The translations under genes and the position numbers were made by a program. From an uncultured Schlesneria sp. (GTDB taxonomy: Bacteria; Planctomycetota; Planctomycetia; Planctomycetales; Planctomycetaceae), in the NCBI GenBank assembly GCA_903840265.1, contig CAIMFH010000078.1, positions 1-35,446 of the forward strand: a stretch of DNA of 35,446 bases, read 5' to 3'. Below the pieces are notes generated by a model. It was not told the DNA's origin and did not search any database. It saw only the letters and a list, made by a program, of their open reading frames with translations. Every line of letters begins with the position of its first letter. Within the stretch, counting starts at the first letter, position 1. This document shows positions 1 to 11,026 of the stretch, one piece after another.

Positions 1-762
1 CAGCCGGTAATAGGGCAATTAAACATCGGTGGAACAAGCAAGACCGTGTTTAGTTCCCAATCCACGTTCTACGGAATCGGCGGCGCTCGAAATGCAGTTG
101 AACACGGCGGCCTGAATGTCGGATTTGTCCTGTACGGTGTGCGCAATGATGAAGCCGCAACGCTGTTTCGCGAACTTGGGAATGAAGCTGGCGTTATTGC
201 CCACCTCCACGATTTGATACCGGGAATCCAAAACTACGGTACGCCCCTCGTACTTTGGTCCCTCATCATTTACGAGACTCTCCAAGGCAGTGCCTGGCTA
301 TCGCAAGTCGATAGCATCACGGAGAACCCGGCAATGCACTCTAATCCGTTTACGGCATCGGTTGAAACCCTGAAACGTCTTCTCGCCCGCAACTTAAGCC
401 GCGGAGGGCAACTAGAAGATCCCACGCCCGTCGCTACCAAACAGGCACCGAAGAGGAGTACGGAACGGGGCGAAGGCCGGGCGAAGCTAATTGCGGCACT
501 GACGAAGCACCACGAATATGCTGACAGCGGCTGCCTTAACACAGAGCCCATCGGCAACAACGGGTTGGCCCGAATGGCGGACGTTTCTGCATCAACCGCA
601 TCGGAATTCTTCAACAAGGAATTCAATGGACTTACGAAGTATCGGGCGATTTGCGCCGACAAAACTGGACTTGTTGCGGCACTGAAGCTGCTCAATCAAG
701 AATTCTCACCCCATCTTCTATTCGGAGCGAAGCCGCTAGGCGAAGGTGACAGCGACGAATAA
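1..762 (+). CDS. Hypothetical protein with HTH-like C-terminus (5' end probably outside the window)
   Basis: I do not recognise this family. The frame is open from base 1. The first in-frame start visible is a GTG at 46 without a convincing Shine-Dalgarno, so the gene may begin before the window. From the GTG it would give 238 residues. The N-terminal half looks globular, with a GIGGARNAVEHGG segment near residue 10. The middle (about 110-150) is charged and probably a linker. Near residues 170-195 the segment GLARMADVSASTASEFFNKE has the spacing of a helix-turn-helix (helix, small-residue turn, Ser/Thr-rich recognition helix), which suggests DNA binding. The acidic C-terminus ends at 762. 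It lies upstream of a DUF4365 gene on the same strand, 184 bases apart, with a weak hairpin between them. The coding call is fairly safe; the function is unknown. Confidence 0.6.
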   Translation, partial: QPVIGQLNIGGTSKTVFSSQSTFYGIGGARNAVEHGGLNVGFVLYGVRNDEAATLFRELGNEAGVIAHLHDLIPGIQNYGTPLVLWSLIIYETLQGSAWLSQVDSITENPAMHSNPFTASVETLKRLLARNLSRGGQLEDPTPVATKQAPKRSTERGEGRAKLIAALTKHHEYADSGCLNTEPIGNNGLARMADVSASTASEFFNKEFNGLTKYRAICADKTGLVAALKLLNQEFSPHLLFGAKPLGEGDSDE

Positions 763-777
763 CTGAGGCGTTCGATC

Positions 778-806
778 ATTCGGGGTGGCGTGGCGAATAC
801 CCGAAT
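778..806 (+). terminator. Weak hairpin after the first gene
   Basis: ATTCGGG (778-784) pairs perfectly with CCCGAAT (800-806) across a 15-base loop, starting 16 bases after the stop codon of the first gene. There is no T-tract, so a role as an intrinsic terminator is only possible. Confidence 0.3.
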
Positions 807-946
807 AACCTCTTGACTGCGCGAATCGCAGCTTCGTTCGAAGTTTTAGAGCGAATCTCATGCTGTTCGACATCTTGTTGCCGAACGCTGGGCCAACGGT
901 GATACAGACGGCACTTCGCGGTCAGTGACTGTTGGAGCAGAGAATA

Positions 947-1483
947 ATGGAAACGCAATCCGTCGCCGACCTAAGAGCTCGGCATAGTCAGCAACTCATT
1001 CGAAACATGCAACAGGAATCCGCGATTATCCTAGATAATGAAAGTAGGGAACGAGCGCTCGTCGGCGAAGTCATTTCGACAGTGGCACTCGCAGGCCAAA
1101 TCTGCCGTGAGTTAAATGTGAGCGACAAGGGGATCGATATGGAAGTCGAGTTTAAGGACGATGGCCATGAAGCGACTGGAAAGAAACTTTACCTGCAATT
1201 GAAGTCTGGTGATTCGTACTTGCGGAAACGGATGAGCGATGGCGCGGCGTTATTCCAGATCACGAAGGAGCGCTACGTCAAATACTGGATGAACCAGATG
1301 TTTCCGGTGTTGCTCGTAATCCGGAGTTCCGATGGCGAAGTCCGTTGGATGGAAATAAGAGACTGGTTGAAGAAGCACAGCGAGAACGGAACGAAGCCTA
1401 TAAAGCAAATTCTCTTCCATGGGGAACGATTTGACGTAATGAGCGTGCGGAGATGGCGAGATCGGATCCTGACTCAGACGTAA
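947..1483 (+). CDS. DUF4365 domain protein (PD-(D/E)XK nuclease-like)
   Basis: A 178-residue protein with the pattern of DUF4365: an early GE motif (E41), GID at 62-64, the QLKSG core (Q84, K86), an aromatic KYW segment near 112-114, then a hydrophobic strand (PVLLVI, 120-125) and a W-containing tail. The order E...GID...QxK resembles the Mrr/PD-(D/E)XK nuclease core, with D64 and the QxK pair as the likely metal site. Members of this family are often seen near mobile or defence genes, but the substrate is unproven. I chose the ATG at 947 because GGAG lies about 9 bases upstream; a TTG at 932 would add five residues. The family call is good; the nuclease activity is inferred. Confidence 0.75.
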   Translation: METQSVADLRARHSQQLIRNMQQESAIILDNESRERALVGEVISTVALAGQICRELNVSDKGIDMEVEFKDDGHEATGKKLYLQLKSGDSYLRKRMSDGAALFQITKERYVKYWMNQMFPVLLVIRSSDGEVRWMEIRDWLKKHSENGTKPIKQILFHGERFDVMSVRRWRDRILTQT

Positions 1484-1531
1484 GGTGATGAAAGTCGAGC
1501 GCGATCCCGAGCGCGTAAAGCGTGCGAGCGC

Positions 1532-1618
1532 ATGGACCAGATGCGTGAGGAGATCCGTAAGAGGGTCGGGACGGTGGATTTCGCAGTCGATTCGATTCGT
1601 GAATATCGCGACCGATGA
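1532..1618 (+). pseudogene. Antitoxin-like remnant (VapB-type C-terminus)
   Basis: A 28-codon frame starting at ATG 1532 encodes MDQMREEIRKRVG followed by a segment ending DSIREYRDR. This tail resembles the C-termini of small VapB-type antitoxins that precede PIN toxins. It ends in an ATGA overlap with the PIN fragment that follows, the usual arrangement of a toxin-antitoxin operon. The frame continues open upstream to the TAA at 1481 with no start codon, and another frame offers an ATG at 1488 (MKVERDPERVKRAS), so a frameshift may have broken a longer antitoxin. The identification rests mainly on context. Confidence 0.4.
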
Positions 1619-1830
1619 GCCTCTTCGTTCTTGATACCTTAGTCGCCGTCAAATGGGCGCTCCCGGAATCTGGATTGGTCGCAGTCCTCACGCTTCGGAA
1701 CGCTATCCGTCACCGAATCCACGAGATCATTTTCCCTGCCTCGGTTCGCCGTTCTGCTATTCGAGCAGGCTACATTCATGACGGACAGCTAAGGCAGGTC
1801 CTTGCTGAACGGCGGCCTCGATTGTCGTGA
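1615..1830 (+). pseudogene. Truncated PIN-domain toxin (VapC-like remnant)
   Basis: The frame begins MSLFVLDTLVAVKWALPES, very close to the first strand and helix of VapC PIN ribonucleases, which normally read VLDTSVAVKW. After about 40 residues (IHEIIFPA) the similarity becomes patchy: a short RAGYIHDGQLRQVLAE piece recalls the next PIN helix, but the acidic residues expected in between are missing and the frame stops at 71 residues. Intact VapC proteins are about 130-150 residues. It overlaps the antitoxin-like remnant by ATGA. I read it as a toxin gene inactivated by an internal deletion or frameshift. Confidence 0.55.
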
Positions 1831-1833
1831 GAA

Positions 1834-2685
1834 CTAACCGCTCGGCGGCGAATTCGGCGCAAATCCGCCGCTACCGTAGCCTGTTCCCGGCGGTTGAAAT
1901 TGAATATTGCTCGGTATCGACGGGTTGTCAGCGAGACCAACCTCGACAGCCAGTCCACCTCTCGTGGCGGGAATGTCATTGTCTGTATCTCGAAGCCACC
2001 TTTGGAGGTGAAACCATGCATCGCGTGCGGCAGAGAGAAACTTGGGCCAGTGCGTGTCGTAGAAGTCGCCCACGAGTTCGTGACGGCCCGCAAATTGAAC
2101 GTCCCAAGGAGTATACTTCGGCTGATCGCCGCCGTCATTCTCATCGGATTTCAGTTGCTGAAAGCAGAAAACTGGCATCCCTCCATCGACACTAATCGGC
2201 ACAATGCGCGAGTGAATAAACTGCGTTCTTCTGTCGTATGATGTTGCCAAGTCTGGGAAGTTGATCTTTAGCCATTTACTCCCTGATCCTTTCTTAAGTT
2301 TGGTACACGGAGCGTCTGAAAATGCACTCCCCAACGTGTCGATGGCGGCTCCAATGTTCCACCAATATGACGCAGTCAGCTCGTGTATTTCAAGTAGTCG
2401 AGCCCCTATGTCTGCGGTCAACTCCACCTCACATGCCCGTTTGAGAGAAGAGAGTGCTTTGAATGCGTGATAAAGTCGTATAAGCGCGGTGTAGTGGCTG
2501 CCTGCAAAGTCCATCCACTCTGCGGGAACGCGTGAGTACCCGGCGTCAGGTAGGCGACGTTGGAAGACGTGCGTTGCCCATACAGTCGAATAGGGCTCGA
2601 TTACTGTGACAAGCGCGTCAGCAGCCGTGCGAACTATTTCGCGTTCCAGTGGATCGCCGTGCCGACCAAGGAGGTTTATGCTCAT
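1834..2685 (-). CDS. Hypothetical helical protein with HEPN-like R-x4-H motif
   Basis: A 283-residue protein not assigned to a named family. ATG 2685 is chosen over ATG 2697 because GGGAG sits five bases before it. Residues 64-125 look entirely helical (LYHAFKALSSLKRACEVEL, then ASYWWNIGAAIDTLGSAF), and residues 152-158 read RRTQFIH, giving R153-x4-H158. This is the spacing of the catalytic R-x4-6-H motif of HEPN ribonucleases. The C-terminal 40 residues are rich in Gly, Pro, Ser and Asn (ending GGFAPNSPPSG) and probably disordered. The gene is divergent from a second R-x4-H protein at 2962-3747. HEPN membership is inferred from motif and helical context only. Confidence 0.6.
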   Translation of the reverse strand: MSINLLGRHGDPLEREIVRTAADALVTVIEPYSTVWATHVFQRRLPDAGYSRVPAEWMDFAGSHYTALIRLYHAFKALSSLKRACEVELTADIGARLLEIHELTASYWWNIGAAIDTLGSAFSDAPCTKLKKGSGSKWLKINFPDLATSYDRRTQFIHSRIVPISVDGGMPVFCFQQLKSDENDGGDQPKYTPWDVQFAGRHELVGDFYDTHWPKFLSAARDAWFHLQRWLRDTDNDIPATRGGLAVEVGLADNPSIPSNIQFQPPGTGYGSGGFAPNSPPSG

Positions 2686-2961
2686 TTTGTCTCCCATGCA
2701 ATACGATCAAGTATCATTCGAATCGGAAGTTTCAAGCAGGATGCACTTTTGGCATCCGTTTACTGGCGACGTCCCGGAATTCGAGAATATCGCGTATATG
2801 GCTCTCTGGCTACAGCCGTAGCAAGCCGGCAATCGGCGGTCGGCATTGTAAATGCCGCCAGCATCTGTCGACGGTCGCCAACGCAGCCTGTACATTGAGA
2901 TCATATGTGCCACAATGTGTTGCAAAATGGCGATCGACAACATAACGGATGAGCTAGACTG

Positions 2962-3747
2962 ATGCCAATAACACCGAAACGTCACTTTGACGAAGACATC
3001 GCGCGCGCCAAAGCAATTGCGGTCCATGCAAAGACACTTTTGTCAACGACTCCATTTGAGGAACTCCTACGCGACGACCTCCTTCGAAGCGCGTGGATGT
3101 TTGCAGTCGGAGCAATGGATGCATACTTCTGCGACGCTTACGCCCACTTTTTGGCAACAACACTTCAAGCCAAAAGCCTGCAGCCCACGGTCGTATTGCC
3201 AGCATTCATAAACAAGATCAAGATTCCGATCGGGTCGATACTGTCTCCATACGCCAATAGACCGAACTGGCGTTGGCGGATGGCCGCAAAAGCAATGATG
3301 GAGCGTGACAATGTTTTGGACTTGGAAAAGGTAACGAAACTCTTCAATCCATTTTTCCCAGACGGTCAGAACAAGAAGCTGTTTGCGGAAGTGCTGGACG
3401 TATGGATTCAATTGCCCGGAGCGACGGCTCATCTGTTTGGTATCACAGGAACCGTATTCGCAGCAGTGTTGAACGGTCACGCGAAGGACCAGGCAAGAAA
3501 AGACGCCGCAAAGTACTTCACAAAGCGAATTAGTTCGATAATTCAAAGACGCCATGACTGCATTCACAACTGCGACCGTCCCAAGACATCTCCGCAACCA
3601 GTGGGGAGTGCAGGATCCGTTCAGAACGTCATACGCGATGTCCGATTCACCGTTGAGCGGTGTGATGCGCATTTCGATTCGGAATATGCAGCCTTCCTTA
3701 CGCGAATTGGCTGCACATCCGTAACTCGGAATCAATTGGGCTATTGA
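2962..3747 (+). CDS. HEPN-domain protein (RiboL-PSP-HEPN-like)
   Basis: A 261-residue protein. The N-terminal segment around residues 43-63 (SAWMFAVGAMDAYFCDAYAH) matches the helical start of RiboL-PSP-HEPN-type proteins, which often read 'aalEaYl'. Residues 196-203 are RRHDCIHN, giving R197-x4-H202 followed by N, the typical HEPN catalytic motif with the basic residue just before. The tail (215-250) is a further helix. HEPN proteins act as RNases in toxin-antitoxin, Abi and RNA-processing systems; here the partner is unknown. No nucleotidyltransferase (MNT) gene is adjacent. The gene is divergent from the R-x4-H protein at 1834-2685 with 276 bases between starts, and convergent with the outer-membrane protein gene downstream. 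Confidence 0.65.
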   Translation: MPITPKRHFDEDIARAKAIAVHAKTLLSTTPFEELLRDDLLRSAWMFAVGAMDAYFCDAYAHFLATTLQAKSLQPTVVLPAFINKIKIPIGSILSPYANRPNWRWRMAAKAMMERDNVLDLEKVTKLFNPFFPDGQNKKLFAEVLDVWIQLPGATAHLFGITGTVFAAVLNGHAKDQARKDAAKYFTKRISSIIQRRHDCIHNCDRPKTSPQPVGSAGSVQNVIRDVRFTVERCDAHFDSEYAAFLTRIGCTSVTRNQLGY

Positions 3748-3799
3748 TGTTCAACATCGCGGTCAACTTGGCAATTGTGATCACGTCATTCGAGCCATT

Positions 3800-5476
3800 C
3801 TAGTACCGCAGCGTCGACTGCAAATAGAGCAACTCAGCGTTGCCACGTGGTGAGACAGTATTGATGTAGTCGCCGTAGAAGAATTGGAAGTAGCCCAGTT
3901 CGACGCTGAGGTTGGTCGTCACGTTGTAGGTGGCGAGCAGGTCGAGTTCGGTGCCGATGTTACTGCCTCGGTTTGTCGCGGCGGGGAATGGCTGGCCGGT
4001 GACTGTGTAGAGGCGATCGTTCGTGTTGGCGAGTTGGAAGAAGTGTTGAGCCACTTGCAGGCTCAGTTTTTGAGTCGGCTTCAACTGGAACCGCCAGTTG
4101 ATGTCGCTCAGGTTCTGTCGCGCCAGGTTGTCGATCAGACCCATGTAGGCATGGACCAGGCCGTAGTATTGAAAGAAAGTGTTATTGACCTTGTCGTTCG
4201 GGTTGCCATCGCCAGTGGCGTAGTCGTAGAAGCCCCACAGTGTCGGTTCCCACATCACCTTCTTCCATTGATGGCCCAGTCCCGTGACGAAGAAACCGGC
4301 CTGCACGCTATTTCCGTTGTCGTTACCGAACTGATAGCCCCCTTCGAAGTCGGTCAGCCAGGCGCGAGTTCCGTCGTCAACGTTGAATGTTCCCGCCCAG
4401 CGGTGTCCGTAGGTGTATCGATTACCGACAGGAAATCCGGCCCCGCCCGGAAATGAACCGTCATAGTTCGCCCATAGGAGATAGGTGTCGATCGTGTGGT
4501 TCTTGATCCCCTTGTAGGTGGCATAGCCACCTCCGAAGATGATGTTGTGGTTAGGTGGGTCGAACCTGTTGTCGAGGTAATCGACTCCATACCTGAGTCC
4601 GATCCCGCCGCCGTTGCCCGGTGTGGCCGTGTTCACCGGATTCGTTAGCCAGGCGTCCAAGTCCCAATCGACGCCGGGGCTGTTGAGCCTGATCCCCTGG
4701 AAGTTGCGGCGAGTGTTGGCCCAGTCCAGCGGCGAAATCAGCCGTTGAGAACCAAATGAAAGTTCTTGTCGACCGACTCGAAACCAGATGGGCTTTTCAT
4801 CTCGCTCCAGTACCTTCAGGTCGAGAAAGGCGTTCTGAAGGTCCCAGTGATTGGCATCGATCCCGGTCACCGGCAAGTCGTTGTTGTAGATGTCGGCATT
4901 GATCATCTCGATGTAGGCTCGCACCCAGTCCGAGTGCTTCAGGTCGAAGTATTGTCTCCAGCGGACCAGATCATAGACCGATCGGCCGGGCAGAACGAGT
5001 GGAGGCCGCAGTCGGTTGGCTTCGTCCATAAACCGCCAACGAATCTCGCCACCGACAGAGAGTCGCGTCTCTTCGGCCGCTTCCCACGGAATCAGGCTGC
5101 CCAGAGGGACATCCTTGAAGTCCTCGCCCAGCAGCGGCTTGTGATTCGGATCCTTCTTGTAGCTGAAATCATTGTCAAAGAAGCACAGCTTCCACGGCTG
5201 CGGGGGTGGTTTTGGTGCCGCAGGCTTGGGAGCGGCCGCCTGCGGCGCGGGATAGCTTGTTTGCTGAGACACAATCATCGCCGGCAAGCCGGCATCGTCG
5301 GCAACGATGACCGCGTCTGCGGGTGTTGGTGGCAGGGCGATCTCGCCTTCCCGCGATATGGCGGGGTTATCGAGGACATCGGTTAGTGACGACGCCACCG
5401 GTTCGATCGCCAGGGCCATCCCGGCCAAGCCGAGATAGAGACTCCACACGACGACGCTGATCGGCAACCACTTCAT
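3800..5476 (-). CDS. Alginate-export-family outer-membrane beta-barrel, last gene of the nitrate operon
   Basis: A 558-residue precursor. Start at ATG 5476 is set by AAGGA seven bases upstream and gives a signal peptide (MKWLPISVVVWSLYLGLAGMALA). ATG 5515 and a frame reaching 5623 are possible but lack this signal. After the signal comes an Ala/Pro/Lys linker (about residues 75-93), then a long barrel region. The segment GRQELSFGSQRLISPLDWAN is characteristic of the alginate-export (AlgE-like) barrel family. The C-terminus ends LYLQSTLRY, with the terminal aromatic residue expected for an outer-membrane barrel. It is on the nitrate-operon strand, 189 bases after narK, so it may be an outer-membrane channel for nitrate or nitrite rather than alginate; that role is inferred from position only. 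Confidence 0.8.
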   Translation of the reverse strand: MKWLPISVVVWSLYLGLAGMALAIEPVASSLTDVLDNPAISREGEIALPPTPADAVIVADDAGLPAMIVSQQTSYPAPQAAAPKPAAPKPPPQPWKLCFFDNDFSYKKDPNHKPLLGEDFKDVPLGSLIPWEAAEETRLSVGGEIRWRFMDEANRLRPPLVLPGRSVYDLVRWRQYFDLKHSDWVRAYIEMINADIYNNDLPVTGIDANHWDLQNAFLDLKVLERDEKPIWFRVGRQELSFGSQRLISPLDWANTRRNFQGIRLNSPGVDWDLDAWLTNPVNTATPGNGGGIGLRYGVDYLDNRFDPPNHNIIFGGGYATYKGIKNHTIDTYLLWANYDGSFPGGAGFPVGNRYTYGHRWAGTFNVDDGTRAWLTDFEGGYQFGNDNGNSVQAGFFVTGLGHQWKKVMWEPTLWGFYDYATGDGNPNDKVNNTFFQYYGLVHAYMGLIDNLARQNLSDINWRFQLKPTQKLSLQVAQHFFQLANTNDRLYTVTGQPFPAATNRGSNIGTELDLLATYNVTTNLSVELGYFQFFYGDYINTVSPRGNAELLYLQSTLRY

Positions 5477-5665
5477 CACTCGGTCCTTCGAGTTCGCATT
5501 CGATTCAACTGGCATTGTGTCTATCGAACACGACAGGTGCGCAAAGTAACTGTGGACTGCCGCATACTTTCCCTGCGGCCGATCGATACGGACGCTTGTA
5601 CGGATTATTCCGGTTGTGGGCACCTGTGATGAGTCCCTGATTTTCGACCGGAAGAATCTGCCGAA

Positions 5666-7012
5666 TTAAGCAGTCGCGCCGGCTAGTTCGAGCCCCTCCG
5701 ATGTTGGCTGTGGCTTCTGCAGCTTCATCGCATCCGCTTCCACTTCCGGTGAGAACCAAACTGCGAGTGCCGCGGTCGAACTGATCGTGATAATGCCTCC
5801 CAGCAACATCAATGCGGCTGGCCAACTCATGCCTCCTTTGAACAGGAAGCCTGCGGCCACCGCCCCGATGTTGCCCCCTGCCCCGACAATACCGGCTACC
5901 GAGCCGAGAGACTGTCGATTGACGAACGGGACCACGGCATAGGTCGCTCCGTTCGACATCTTGACGAACAGTCCCAACAGCAGCATCGAAGGCACGGCCA
6001 GCCAGATGACGTTCATCGAGGCGAACAGCATCAGGCAGAGGCCTTCGCACAGCACGACCGCGAACATCCAGCGGACTCGCCCTTTCAGCCCCCACTCGGC
6101 ATTGCAGCGATCGCTGATGTAACCGCCCAAGGCTCGTGCGAACAGGTTCATCATGCCGAACGATGCCGCGGCGGCACCGGCCCAGTACAGATCGAGCTGG
6201 AAGTAGTCGGTGAAGTAAAGAGCGGCGATGTTGTCCAGCGTCAATTCCATCCCGAAGCAACAGGCATAGATCAGCGCCAGTGCCCAGACTCGGTAGTCAC
6301 TTGCCGCGGCGAGAAAGCTTCCCTTGGATTGTTTGACGGCCGGCATCGCTCCCGATTGGCGAAGGGTACTGAAGTTGCCTTCCGGGGTGTCCTGCGTCAG
6401 AAAATAGTAAGCGATCCCCGTCAGGAAGCAGAGGATTCCTGACAGCAGCATCGCCGCACGCCAACCGAGGGCATCGCTAAAACCACACAGCGTGACAAAG
6501 CCCGCGAAGACCAATGGCATGACCATCTGCGTGACGCCGCCGCCCAGGTTTCCCCAACCGGCGGTCGCCGCGTTGGCTGTGCCGATACAGTTTGACGCAA
6601 ACATTTGCGATGTGTGATACTGAGTGATGACGAACGAAGCTCCGATGACACCGATCAGGATGCGAAACAGCAGGAACGATTCGAAGCTGTTCGCGAAGCC
6701 GATCATCATGACTGGGATGGAACCCAACGTCAGCAGCCACGTATAGGACAATCGGGGGCCAATTCGATCGCACAGCCAGCCGATTCCCATGCGAGCCAGA
6801 ATCGTGATGGAGACCGAACCGATGATGCACCAGCCAACCTGGTCCTTGGTCAGCGCCAGTTCTTTTCGAACGATCGGCATCAGCGGTGCGATGCCGAACC
6901 ACGCGAAAAAGCACAAGAAGAAGGCGAACCACGTCATGTGAAACGCACGCATTTGCGGCGTCTTCAGGCTGAACAGGTCGATGCGAGTGGCCTTGCCTGG
7001 AGAGGTGTACAC
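5666..7012 (-). CDS. narK: Nitrate/nitrite MFS transporter (NarK/NasA type)
   Basis: A 448-residue major facilitator with about twelve hydrophobic segments. It carries both nitrate-signature motifs of the NNP family: GWGNLGGGVTQ near residues 152-162 and GAGGNIGAV near 377-385. Arginines in helices 2 and 8, expected for anion binding, are plausible (FRILIGVIG near 117). GTG 7012 is the likely start: AAAGGA lies about eight bases upstream and the first ATG would trim a normal N-terminus; the longer upstream frame would run into nasA. It begins 26 bases after nasA and should import nitrate, and perhaps export nitrite, across the inner membrane. The C-terminal tail is cytoplasmic and polar. Confidence 0.92.
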   Translation of the reverse strand: MYTSPGKATRIDLFSLKTPQMRAFHMTWFAFFLCFFAWFGIAPLMPIVRKELALTKDQVGWCIIGSVSITILARMGIGWLCDRIGPRLSYTWLLTLGSIPVMMIGFANSFESFLLFRILIGVIGASFVITQYHTSQMFASNCIGTANAATAGWGNLGGGVTQMVMPLVFAGFVTLCGFSDALGWRAAMLLSGILCFLTGIAYYFLTQDTPEGNFSTLRQSGAMPAVKQSKGSFLAAASDYRVWALALIYACCFGMELTLDNIAALYFTDYFQLDLYWAGAAAASFGMMNLFARALGGYISDRCNAEWGLKGRVRWMFAVVLCEGLCLMLFASMNVIWLAVPSMLLLGLFVKMSNGATYAVVPFVNRQSLGSVAGIVGAGGNIGAVAAGFLFKGGMSWPAALMLLGGIITISSTAALAVWFSPEVEADAMKLQKPQPTSEGLELAGATA

Positions 7013-7038
7013 GATTCGAATCCTTTGCTGAGATGGGG

Positions 7039-9294
7039 CTAAATGCGAATGAGACGGACCGCGCACGCCTTGTAAGACGGCTGGCGCGAGTAGGGGTCGA
7101 ACACGGCATCGGTCAGTTGATTGGCCGCGTCGTAGTGCATGGGGATAAAGACCTGGCCGGGTTGCACTGTGTTGGTGACAAACGCACGGGCGCGGACTCG
7201 ACCGCGTTGCGATTCCACAGCGATCCACTCATGAGGCTGAATGCCCGCTTCGCGAGCATCGCGCGGATTGACTTCGACGTAGATCGATTCGGGACTGAGC
7301 TTGTTCAGCACCGCCGACTTGCCTGTGCGAGTTTGCGTATGCCACTGCACCGCCGTGCCGCGACCTGTCAGCAGGATCATCGGATAGTCTTTGGTCGGCG
7401 GCTCGGGCATGGGCCGTGGCATCTCGAACAGCAGCTTCGCTTTGCCGTCGGCGTGGTAGTAACGGCCATCTTCGAACAAGCGACGCTGAGTCAAGTCGCC
7501 TGATGGTGTACTGTCAGCAGCCTCTTCGTCAGGCCTCTTCGCTGCGGGCTTCAAGTCATCAGCGCCAGCGACGTAGGGCCACTGGATGCCACCTTCGTTG
7601 TCCAGATGCTGATAGTCCTTGATGCCGGTGAAGTCGCAGGGTTGCCCCGCGCTGAGTCGCTTCAAGATCTGGAACGCGGCTTCCGGTGATTTCCATTCAC
7701 GAAACAGGCTTTCGCAGCCCCAGTGATGGGCGACGAGACGCATGATCTGGAAGTCCGCCAATGCTTGGCCGGGGGCCGCTGAGACTTTCTTGATCACGCC
7801 AAAGCGGCGTTCCGAGTTGATAAACGTTCCGTCCTTCTCGCCCCACGCCGCGGCTGGCAACACCAAGTCGGCCTCGCGAGCCGTCTCGGTGGTCGAGTAC
7901 ATGTCTTGCACGACCAGAAAGTCGAGTCGATCCAGAATGTCTCGACATTGATTCTGATTGATCCAGGAATGAACGGGGTTCGTGGCCACGACCCATAGCC
8001 CCTTGATCTTGCCTCTCAAAATTCCTTCGAGAATTTCCGGATAAGCCCAGCTGTTGACGCTGGGGATGTGGTTGACATCGATCTTCAGCAGATTGGCAAC
8101 GGTGGCACGGTCTTCGGCCTTCGTGAAATCTCGGCCACCCAGTAGCCCGGTCGTGTTCGAGAACAGTCGCGAGCCCATCGCGTTGCATTGGCCGGTAATC
8201 GAGTTCGCACCCGTCCCCGGCCGACCCATGTTGCCCGTGATCAGTGCCAGATTGATCAGACTCTGAGCCGCTCGCACTCCCTCGTAGCTCTGGTTCACGC
8301 CCATCGTCCACCAGAACGAGACGCGTGGTCGCTCGTGAATGGTGCGAGCCACTCGATGCAGGCTTTCAATCGTCAGGCCCGTTTTCTCAGCCACGATTTC
8401 GGGAGTGAACTGCTTCACATGAGCGGCGAATTCGTCGAAGCCGTTGGTGTGAGCAGCGATATAGTCGTGATCGATCCAACCGTTTTCGATCAGGATGTGA
8501 GCCAGCCCATAGAACAGTGCCAGATCGCTCTTTGGTCGAATCGCCAGATGCTGCGTCGCGTTCATCGCAGTTTCGGTGCGTCGCGGATCGACGACGATGA
8601 TTTCCGGCTTCCGTTTGTTGCGCATCACCCGTTCCCACAGGATCGGGTGAGCGATGCAGACGTTGGCTCCCACGAAGATCATGCAATCGGACTCTTCAAA
8701 GTCCTGGTACGTATAAGGCGGTGCGTCGAATCCAAACGATTGCTTATAGGCGACGACTGCGGTCGCCATGCACTGGCGAGTGTTGCCGTCGCCATGAATC
8801 ATTCCCATTCCAAACTTGGCGACCGCCCCCAGCAGCGCCAGTTCCTCTGTGGCGAGCTGCCCCGTCCCTAGCCAGGCGACCGATTCGGGCCCGTGATCGC
8901 GCTGGATTTGCTTGAAACGCGAGCAGAAGGCGCCCATCGCGACATCCCAGTCGACCGGCTCCAGATTACCTTTCTGATTGCGTAGCAGCGGCGTCGTCGC
9001 GCGTTCGGACGAATGCAAGACATTCAGTGCCTCCCATCCTTTGGGGCAGGCCATTCCCAAATTAACGGGATAGTTTGTGTTCGGTGTCAGCCCGACAGCC
9101 GCACCGTCCTGAAGATGAATGTTCAGGCTGCAGCCGGTCGAGCAGAAGCCGCACGTCATCGGTGTGGTCGCGTTGGGTTTGCTTCGGTCTGGAACCACTC
9201 CCAATCCGAATCCACCAGGACTCAGCAGCATCTCGCGCGTGTAGCGTCCATCTCGCTGGTGCAGCAGGTCGGCGAACGGAAGTTTGATGGCCAT
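7039..9294 (-). CDS. nasA: Assimilatory nitrate reductase, molybdopterin catalytic subunit
   Basis: A 751-residue member of the molybdopterin oxidoreductase family. The N-terminal [4Fe-4S] ligands are C48, C51, C55 and C83 (CGFCSTGC, then ACPKG). C175 in NTRQCMATA is the probable Mo ligand, as in NapA/Nas enzymes. The C-terminal beta-barrel domain ([18 protein letters not shown] and following) binds the dinucleotide cofactor. There is no twin-arginine signal, so the enzyme is cytoplasmic and assimilatory. Start ATG 9294 has AAGGAG eight bases upstream. It lacks the C-terminal [2Fe-2S] Bfd-type domain of some NasA proteins, which fits a separate electron donor: the Fe-S/anchor fusion encoded 13 bases upstream. 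It reduces nitrate to nitrite, which NirBD then uses. Confidence 0.93.
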
Positions 9295-9307
9295 CGATCC
9301 GACTCCT

Positions 9308-11026
9308 TCAGGTTCGCAGGCTACCGGGCATCCGCATCGCGACGGCCGCTGTGAAGAACAGCGTGCGTTCGACGAATTCGCCGATGACAGATAAGGTGAA
9401 CGAGGCCAGACACAGACCGACGATGACCGCGGGGCTCATCGAGTGAGACGCGCTTCCCCACGTTTGATTCAGCAGAATGGCTGGCAACGCGATGCCACCG
9501 ACAAGGCCGCACAAAAACCGGATGCGAGTCCAGACTCTTAATTCACCGACCATGAGTCGCGCTGAACGATTGAGAGGTGTCGTCTGCTTGCTGAACAAGT
9601 GACCGAACAAAGCCACTTCGTAGAGCAATTTTGCGGCGGCGACGATGACCAGGGCCAGACATAAGCTGCTGCCGTACGCGACCATCAACTGCTGGATGCT
9701 GGCAGGCTGCTGCAGATCAACAGCTAAGACGGAAACTGTCAGGACCGTCGACAACCCGAGCCACAACGTCGTCAATGAGAACTTCAGAAACGTCCGAGGG
9801 CCGATCCAGAACGGTCGCTGCGTGCAGTGATAAATCATAATCGAACAGAGGACACCCGCGAGTCCCGCGGTCACCACGGCGCAGGCCAACCCAAACACCC
9901 AGGGGGCTCCCTGCTGTTCGGGCCACAGCCACAGCACCGCGGCGTAGATTGCGGCAAACTTGGCGAAGGCACCAAACGCGACGATTTCGCGACTAAGCCA
10001 ACTGGTCCATAGGCCCAGCACCGCGCGATAGGCGAGCATCGGCCGGCCCAAGTGCATGGTGCTGGCGGCGAGAGCCAGTAGTCCAAAGCCGAGCGCACTC
10101 GCCGTTTGAACGGGCAGCACCAGCGAGAACAACGTTGAACCCTGGGCATAAACTTGCAGGATCTGCCCGACCAGGAACGCTCCCACGGACAACTGGGTCA
10201 GCACCAGCATGACAATGAGCGGGGTATGCGCATGTTCCGCGTGGACTGCGAAATAATCTGCCGGCAAGAAGTTCCGCGGAAACGGCTTCGACGACTTATA
10301 GTTCGTCGTTGGCTGCGTGTACTGAGGGTCAGGGGCACCAGGCAGAAAAGGATTCGCTTCACAATCGGCCGCAACATCGGCCTTCTTCACGACCGCGATG
10401 CGAATCGCTTCATGAGGACAGGCCTGCACACAGGCGGGAGCCTCACCGACAGCCAATCGCTGGCTGCACATATCGCACTTGCGAACGATGCCTCGCTTGG
10501 CGCTGTACTTGGGGACTTCATAAGGACAGGCCAGAATGCAGTACTGGCAGCCGAAGCATTGATCGTCCAGGTGCTTGACGATGCCCGTGACCGGATCCTT
10601 TTCGTAGGCTCGCGTTGGGCAGACATTCATGCACGCTGGATCAAGACAGTGATGGCAGGCCGTGGTCACGTGTTGCAACACGGGCAGAGTCACCGACCCA
10701 CCGTGCAGCAGTCCCACATCACGCCAGGTTTCGTCTTCGTCGAGGCCATTCAGCGAGTGACACGCCGTCACGCAGGCCTTGCAGCCCGAGCACCGATCCA
10801 GGTCAACTTCGAATGCGTATTGCTCGCCCGGTCCAGGCGGTGACGCGGGCAGCAGTGACGAGTAGTAGCGTGCCTGCTGGGGCTGGCTGCTTCCCGAATG
10901 GAATTGCGAGAATCGTTCGACTGCCGTCAAATCCTGCTGGTCTGCCAGGAGCTCTTCCAGGAACGAAGGCATCGACGAAGTCGTTGTCCGTTCGGCATGA
11001 GTCAGTGGGAGAGCAACAGAGGACAT
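9308..11026 (-). CDS. DmsB-DmsC fusion: four-cluster ferredoxin joined to a membrane anchor
   Basis: A 572-residue fusion. Residues about 70-215 contain four [4Fe-4S] sites of the DmsB type: C79/C82/C85/C89, C124/C127/C132/C136, C157/C160/C163/C167 and C184/C187/C199/C203. Residues about 268-572 hold some eight hydrophobic helices like the DmsC anchor, the quinol-oxidising subunit of DMSO reductase. In DMSO reductase these are two proteins; here they are one. The gene sits between nirBD and nasA in the same operon (gaps of 68 and 13 bases), so it most likely passes electrons from the quinone pool to NasA. That partnership is inference. The 70-residue N-terminal extension is polar and of unknown role. 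No strong Shine-Dalgarno is visible before ATG 11026. Confidence 0.87.

Follow-up and report, generated by a model that had tools for sequence, protein, structure and literature searches.

Gene layout of the locus

The window analyzed here is a 35,446-bp stretch of DNA from an uncultured Schlesneria sp. (Planctomycetota), namely, contig CAIMFH010000078.1 in full (C78; host genome of 7.49 Mb in 204 contigs). It carries two divergent genes, here called A and B, each encoding a protein with an R-x4-H motif, the spacing seen in HEPN RNase active sites. A first-pass annotation, made from the letters of the DNA and its open reading frames (ORFs), had described the two as unrelated HEPN-like proteins that could form a new two-component RNase or defense unit. 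Both ORFs were present where the annotation placed them, and both motifs were recovered at the expected coordinates. The main features are as follows.

1834 to 2697, minus strand: gene A, putatively HEPN-like, of an unnamed family (287-amino-acid ORF, model, alignment)
2212 to 2232, minus strand: A motif RRTQFIH, R157-x4-H162 in ORF numbering (conserved in 67 aligned rows)
2698 to 2961, no strand: divergent intergenic region between A and B, 264 bp (no gene for protein X, described below, was detected here)
2962 to 3747, plus strand: gene B, RiboL-PSP-HEPN (PF18735) homologue (261-amino-acid ORF, Pfam, model, alignment)
3547 to 3567, plus strand: B motif RRHDCIH, R197-x4-H202 (conserved in 55 aligned rows)

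The B motif spans residues 196 to 202, with R197-x4-H202 as the motif proper. For A, the residues given in the annotation (152 to 158) are correct when counted from the second methionine; in the full 287-amino-acid ORF, the motif occupies residues 156 to 162. The annotation's remark that the usual nucleotidyltransferase antitoxin is missing also held. Pfam searches gave no nucleotidyltransferase match for A, B, or the two ORFs upstream, and no such family was found in the six window ORFs scanned at positions 46 to 7228. In the inspected part of the contig, neither A nor B has restriction-modification (R-M) genes next to it. Past A, only 1.8 kb remains before the contig stops, and an operon may therefore have been lost on that side.

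Motif conservation and predicted folds

The R-x4-H pattern was present in 15 of the 27 non-overlapping window ORFs of at least 100 amino acids. When each protein was shuffled 5000 times, it arose by chance in 43.6% of cases for A and 43.2% for B, so its presence by itself proves nothing. The features above chance are the conservation of the motif and its position in the fold.

Relatives of A numbered 32 by single-sequence search and 73 by profile search; the named relatives of both A and B are planctomycetes. Protein A contains three R-x4-H patterns, only one of which is conserved. In a 67-row alignment (of the 73 profile hits, 9 were omitted, most of them short fragments, and 3 loci were added), R155, R156, and H161 (numbering without the first methionine) were invariant in 67/67 rows and, together with G115, were the sole invariant columns. 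The AlphaFold2 model of A (mean predicted local distance difference test [pLDDT] score of 82.9) has core helices at residues 58 to 89, 96 to 127, 147 to 160, and 208 to 237. H161 is placed just past the helix at 147 to 160, with the helix at 208 to 237 next, in agreement with the HEPN rule that the motif stands at the end of helix 3 or where the loop to helix 4 begins (PMC3710099). Position 119, in the helix at 96 to 127, is acidic throughout the 67 rows (D in 64, E in 3). The motif is followed in the model by a beta-hairpin and then by a predicted disordered tail ending in PPSG. Across the tail of A (window positions 1834 to 1960) and its relatives, the final 14 residues contain SG, mostly as PPSG, in 58 of the 67 rows; this peptide is perhaps a docking peptide.

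No Pfam domain was found on the relatives of A from either search, and no HEPN model matched any of the 32 members scanned (32/32). PADLOC and NCBIfam had no model matching A or B, PHROGs returned weak matches to families of no known function, and plasmids gave no match to either protein. Viral contigs contained three B loci and no A. The Foldseek search proposed with the first-pass annotation gave no match at an expectation value (E) of ≤0.001 for A or B. In the search with A, the HEPN structure 2hsb ranked fourth (E = 1.1), and HEPN proteins, including HepT, made up 9 of the 50 VIA rows for A; HEPN was absent from the 50 rows shown for B. A sequence search for solved relatives of A and B found none of HEPN type. 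On the basis of its motif and model, A appears to represent an unnamed HEPN-like family, undescribed in the searches made.

Protein B had 1116 relatives at E ≤ 0.001. The Pfam family HEPN_RiboL-PSP (PF18735) matched residues 13 to 203 of window B at 19 bits (E = 0.0014), under the gathering score of 28.4, and B is thus reported as a homologue of the family's members and not as a member. PF18735 was detected at E ≤ 0.1 in 48 of the 55 aligned B relatives (best E value, 6.1e-07) and as a precomputed domain in 17 of the 120 relatives listed. Full-length relatives at 51 to 56% identity carry the domain (e.g., P0023, 55% identity over 100% of the length). These similarities indicate that B is homologous to RiboL-PSP-HEPN proteins. 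R197 and H202 were invariant in 55/55 rows of the B alignment, in which D199 was also among the invariant columns. The AlphaFold2 model of B (mean pLDDT score of 85.7) has core helices at residues 3 to 25, 31 to 73, 173 to 205, and 217 to 248, with an insert of about 100 residues (74 to 172) between helices 2 and 3. Residues 197 to 202 are inside the helix at 173 to 205, the third of the core, at its C-terminal end.

The invariance of R and H and the four-helix models, in which the motif ends helix 3, thus bear out the earlier description of both proteins as HEPN-like. Its view of the two as unrelated was likewise supported, in that profile-profile comparisons detected no relationship by sequence (probabilities of 0.6% and 0.3%). 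A common origin of A and B was rejected, the profile comparison not being significant though the motifs were in register.

Co-occurrence of A and B

Two overlapping genome samples were searched, mostly by scoring six first-look candidates per genome, so that misses are possible. The phylum sample (392 genomes) yielded 5 carriers of A and 4 of B; the class sample (397 genomes) yielded 6 and 24, respectively. Co-occurrence was therefore 1/392 and 1/397, the window genome each time, and the proposed two-component unit did not hold up. Of the grounds on which the first-pass annotation had staked that unit, the predicted folds are compatible with HEPN, but co-occurrence was not found. Its suggestion of a link with defense fared better: relatives of A and relatives of B were found beside defense genes.

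Gene contexts of the relatives of A and B

Relatives of A stood beside defense genes (type I R-M, DISARM-like, and SIR2-like) in three of six contexts, a rate that has no random-gene baseline; the count omits a fragment with a stop codon in G238. At L015 (G016), a type I specificity gene, a NucS_C/DUF5655 gene (PDC-S18), HsdR, and A lie on one strand, with A overlapping the HsdR ORF by 4 bp. At L014 (G137), again on one strand, A follows genes for a DrmD-like helicase and a DrmMI/type IIG-like methylase and is followed by a 314-amino-acid ORF, a PDC-S68 RecD-like gene, and a DruE-like helicase gene. At L016 (G003), a SIR2-like gene (PADLOC, E = 1.3e-7; Pfam below cutoff) is just upstream of A on the same strand. 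Members of the A family can probably act as accessories to restriction-type operons. No recognized defense neighbor was present among the genes scanned or read at L002/L044 (G601), L045 (G432), and the truncated L046 (G538). A further search in the family found A in 5/170 genomes, at no new place, and GTDB contigs yielded one A locus, which length and coordinates place on the same contig as that of G601.

At L045, a 402-amino-acid ORF without a known family (L045:8000-9208) lies 12 bp upstream of the A relative and is a possible partner of A. Broken or truncated copies were seen at L018 and L055 (B) and at L017 and L046 (A), as expected for transient defense genes.

Of 27 B loci, 19 (L047 to L052, L054 to L065, and L043) have, just upstream of B and in the same orientation, a gene for a small protein that we call X, as detected with a model built from six X ORFs; the match at L061 is weak (37 bits). 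The gap between X and B is 11 to 63 nucleotides in 18 loci and is inflated at L055 by a stop codon in the broken B. X was found in 10 of 168 class genomes, always directly upstream of B and never without it, although most loci in that search also supplied the X alignment. Aligned X proteins are 95 to 114 amino acids long and acidic (median isoelectric point [pI], 4.37; range, 4.06 to 5.21); window B is basic (pI 9.4). None of the four X sequences tested with Pfam had a meaningful match to MNT or any other family (4/4). X was not found in the window genome, and no X gene or remnant was detected in six frames of the window.

In a tree of B proteins (excluding L055 and L043, whose B is broken or partial, and with long branches for L018, L012, L013, and L011), the 17 X-bearing rows cluster together (support, 87/85). 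Window B is in a separate 15-row group (98/97) together with the X-less L053. Among the relatives of B without X, the one at L011 directly follows HmaB- and HmaC-like genes, the one at L053 comes after genes of the CHAT and caspase-helicase types, and those at L012 and L013 are on two prophage-like contigs. In the family of G527, B was found in 7/45 genomes, with no new X-less locus. The X-B pair, which the window does not have, is a candidate for a HEPN toxin-antitoxin module of a non-MNT type. We did not find it described in the literature searched, PMC3710099 and PMC12839542 included, and this is all that "undescribed" means here.

A variable interval beside the porin gene

Genes A and B lie between two edges, near a further defense-type gene:

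932 to 1483, plus strand: DUF4365 protein, defense type, same spot (PF14280, E = 1.2e-21)
1487 to 1830, plus strand: VapBC-like remnant, far edge of the variable interval (by-eye reading, alignment to L086)
3800 to 5623, minus strand: alginate-export porin gene (PF13372), conserved edge of the variable interval (Pfam, synteny with L086)

By eye, the remnant resembles a VapB antitoxin gene followed by a truncated PIN-type VapC gene. The protein at 932 to 1483 gave weaker matches to the Aga_REase-PNTD and PDC-M02A models besides PF14280; among the 15 same-genus genomes, a match to its gene was seen in two, one of them the window genome. By porin gene (91% identity), the closest of the 15 genomes is G711 (locus L086). 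Its DNA aligns with the window at 3802 to 9500 (about 89 to 90% identity) and at 1487 to 1696 (85%), with synteny beginning at window position 3802, the porin edge. Between these edges, G711 has neither A nor B; it has an esterase gene, a second porin piece, a TIR gene (PADLOC TIR-TM, E = 1.3e-56), a 351-amino-acid ORF without a family, and an AAA_15 ATPase gene. The interval is a turnover spot for defense-type genes.

The second porin piece of G711 (L086:11300-11697) is a partial copy of about 340 bp with 89% identity, located inside the variable interval. Recombination at this site may have left it behind.

Interpretation of the locus

From motif conservation, predicted topology, gene contexts, and lack of co-occurrence, we consider it likely that A and B are two HEPN-type RNase effectors that were acquired independently and came to occupy neighboring positions in a variable defense spot, with B a solo relative of RiboL-PSP-HEPN proteins. 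By analogy with the HEPN superfamily, from which RNase activity, triggers, targets, and control are inferred for both, the helix 3 arginine and histidine of each protein would be paired in a metal-independent RNase site. Each protein would be kept inactive in healthy cells; upon infection, or when a failure of DNA-level defense is sensed, the triggered protein would cut RNA and growth would stop.

Adjacency, divergent orientation, the 264-bp spacing, and the HEPN-like character of both proteins would also suit a single two-component unit, such as two HEPN subunits that form a heteromer and share one divergent promoter. We regard such a unit as highly improbable, since each gene has carriers in both samples and, among the genomes sampled, the two were found together only in the window genome, relatives of B have another conserved neighbor (X), and relatives of A have R-M or other neighbors; the lack of co-occurrence in these samples and the replaced interval in G711 led us to reject A-B as a single system. 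It is unlikely, too, that A is no HEPN protein at all and belongs to another helical family in which the invariant RR-x4-H has a structural or non-nuclease role. R156 and H161 are two of only four invariant columns, the position of the motif at the end of helix 3, the acidic residue in helix 2, and the placement of helix 4 agree, in the model, with HEPN, and the Csx1-like hairpin and the HEPN proteins among the VIA rows point the same way.

B might instead be an orphaned toxin whose lineage lost X and which persists in a tolerated, attenuated, or otherwise controlled form. The closeness of X to B elsewhere, its absence from the window genome, and the opposite charges of acidic X and basic window B speak for this. 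However, window B belongs to a supported group that contains an X-less locus (context is known for 2 of its 15 rows) and is separate from the 17 X-bearing rows, which suggests that lacking X is characteristic of this lineage; no remnant of X was detected in the window, and the catalytic residues of B are intact. We therefore think an orphaned toxin improbable and favor B as an independently acquired effector. A broader proposal, which we advance tentatively and with considerable doubt, is that A is a new HEPN family whose members, with their Csx1-like hairpin, dock by the PPSG tail to type I R-M and DISARM-like systems as fail-safe RNases, and that X-B is a new non-MNT HEPN toxin-antitoxin system whose X-less branch was redeployed as a solo effector in defense operons.

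HEPN RNases attached to R-M systems are thought to be a second, suicidal line of phage defense. The apparent family of A, recognized by none of the libraries tested and traveling with several restriction-type operons, offers a handle on the coupling of HEPN RNases to DNA-level defense. With the two-component reading of A-B fallen away, the X-B module, itself absent from the window, is the most novel by-product. If it is genuine, it would represent a HEPN toxin controlled without a nucleotidyltransferase, and its X-bearing and X-less branches would provide a natural comparison within one family.

Comparison with known systems

HEPN genes in defense operons are already known, and the family of B has been described; "Ribo L-PSP-HEPN" was named in Anantharaman et al. 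2013 (PMC3710099). Like the RiboL-PSP-HEPN proteins (PF18735; PMC3710099), window B keeps R-x4-H and aligns with the HEPN core over residues 13 to 203. It differs in having neither the L-PSP fusion nor the ParB operon given there as contexts, and relatives of B are paired instead with X. The X-B pair resembles HEPN-MNT (HepT-MntA) in that a small gene lies just upstream of the HEPN gene, but X gave no MNT match and the window lacks X. In Roquin, the ROQ region is flanked by HEPN domains.

Stand-alone HEPN genes have been described as effectors that back up BREX and DUF499 systems (PMC12839542). The B relative at L011, adjoining HmaB/HmaC-like genes, is similar to the HEPN effectors of DUF499/Hma (BREX-related) systems, whereas window B has no such neighbors. 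HEPN genes linked to R-M belong to at least 16 HEPN clades, and it has been proposed that their RNases are kept inactive and released once restriction fails (PMC3710099). Like R-M-linked HEPN proteins of the PrrC/PrrI type, A is encoded directly after HsdR (L015) or after a DrmMI/IIG-like methylase (L014). It differs from them in lacking a fused ABC ATPase, in matching no Pfam HEPN family, and in its predicted beta-hairpin after the motif and disordered PPSG tail. A beta-hairpin right after the motif, as in the model of A, is a feature of Csx1 HEPN proteins (PMC3710099).
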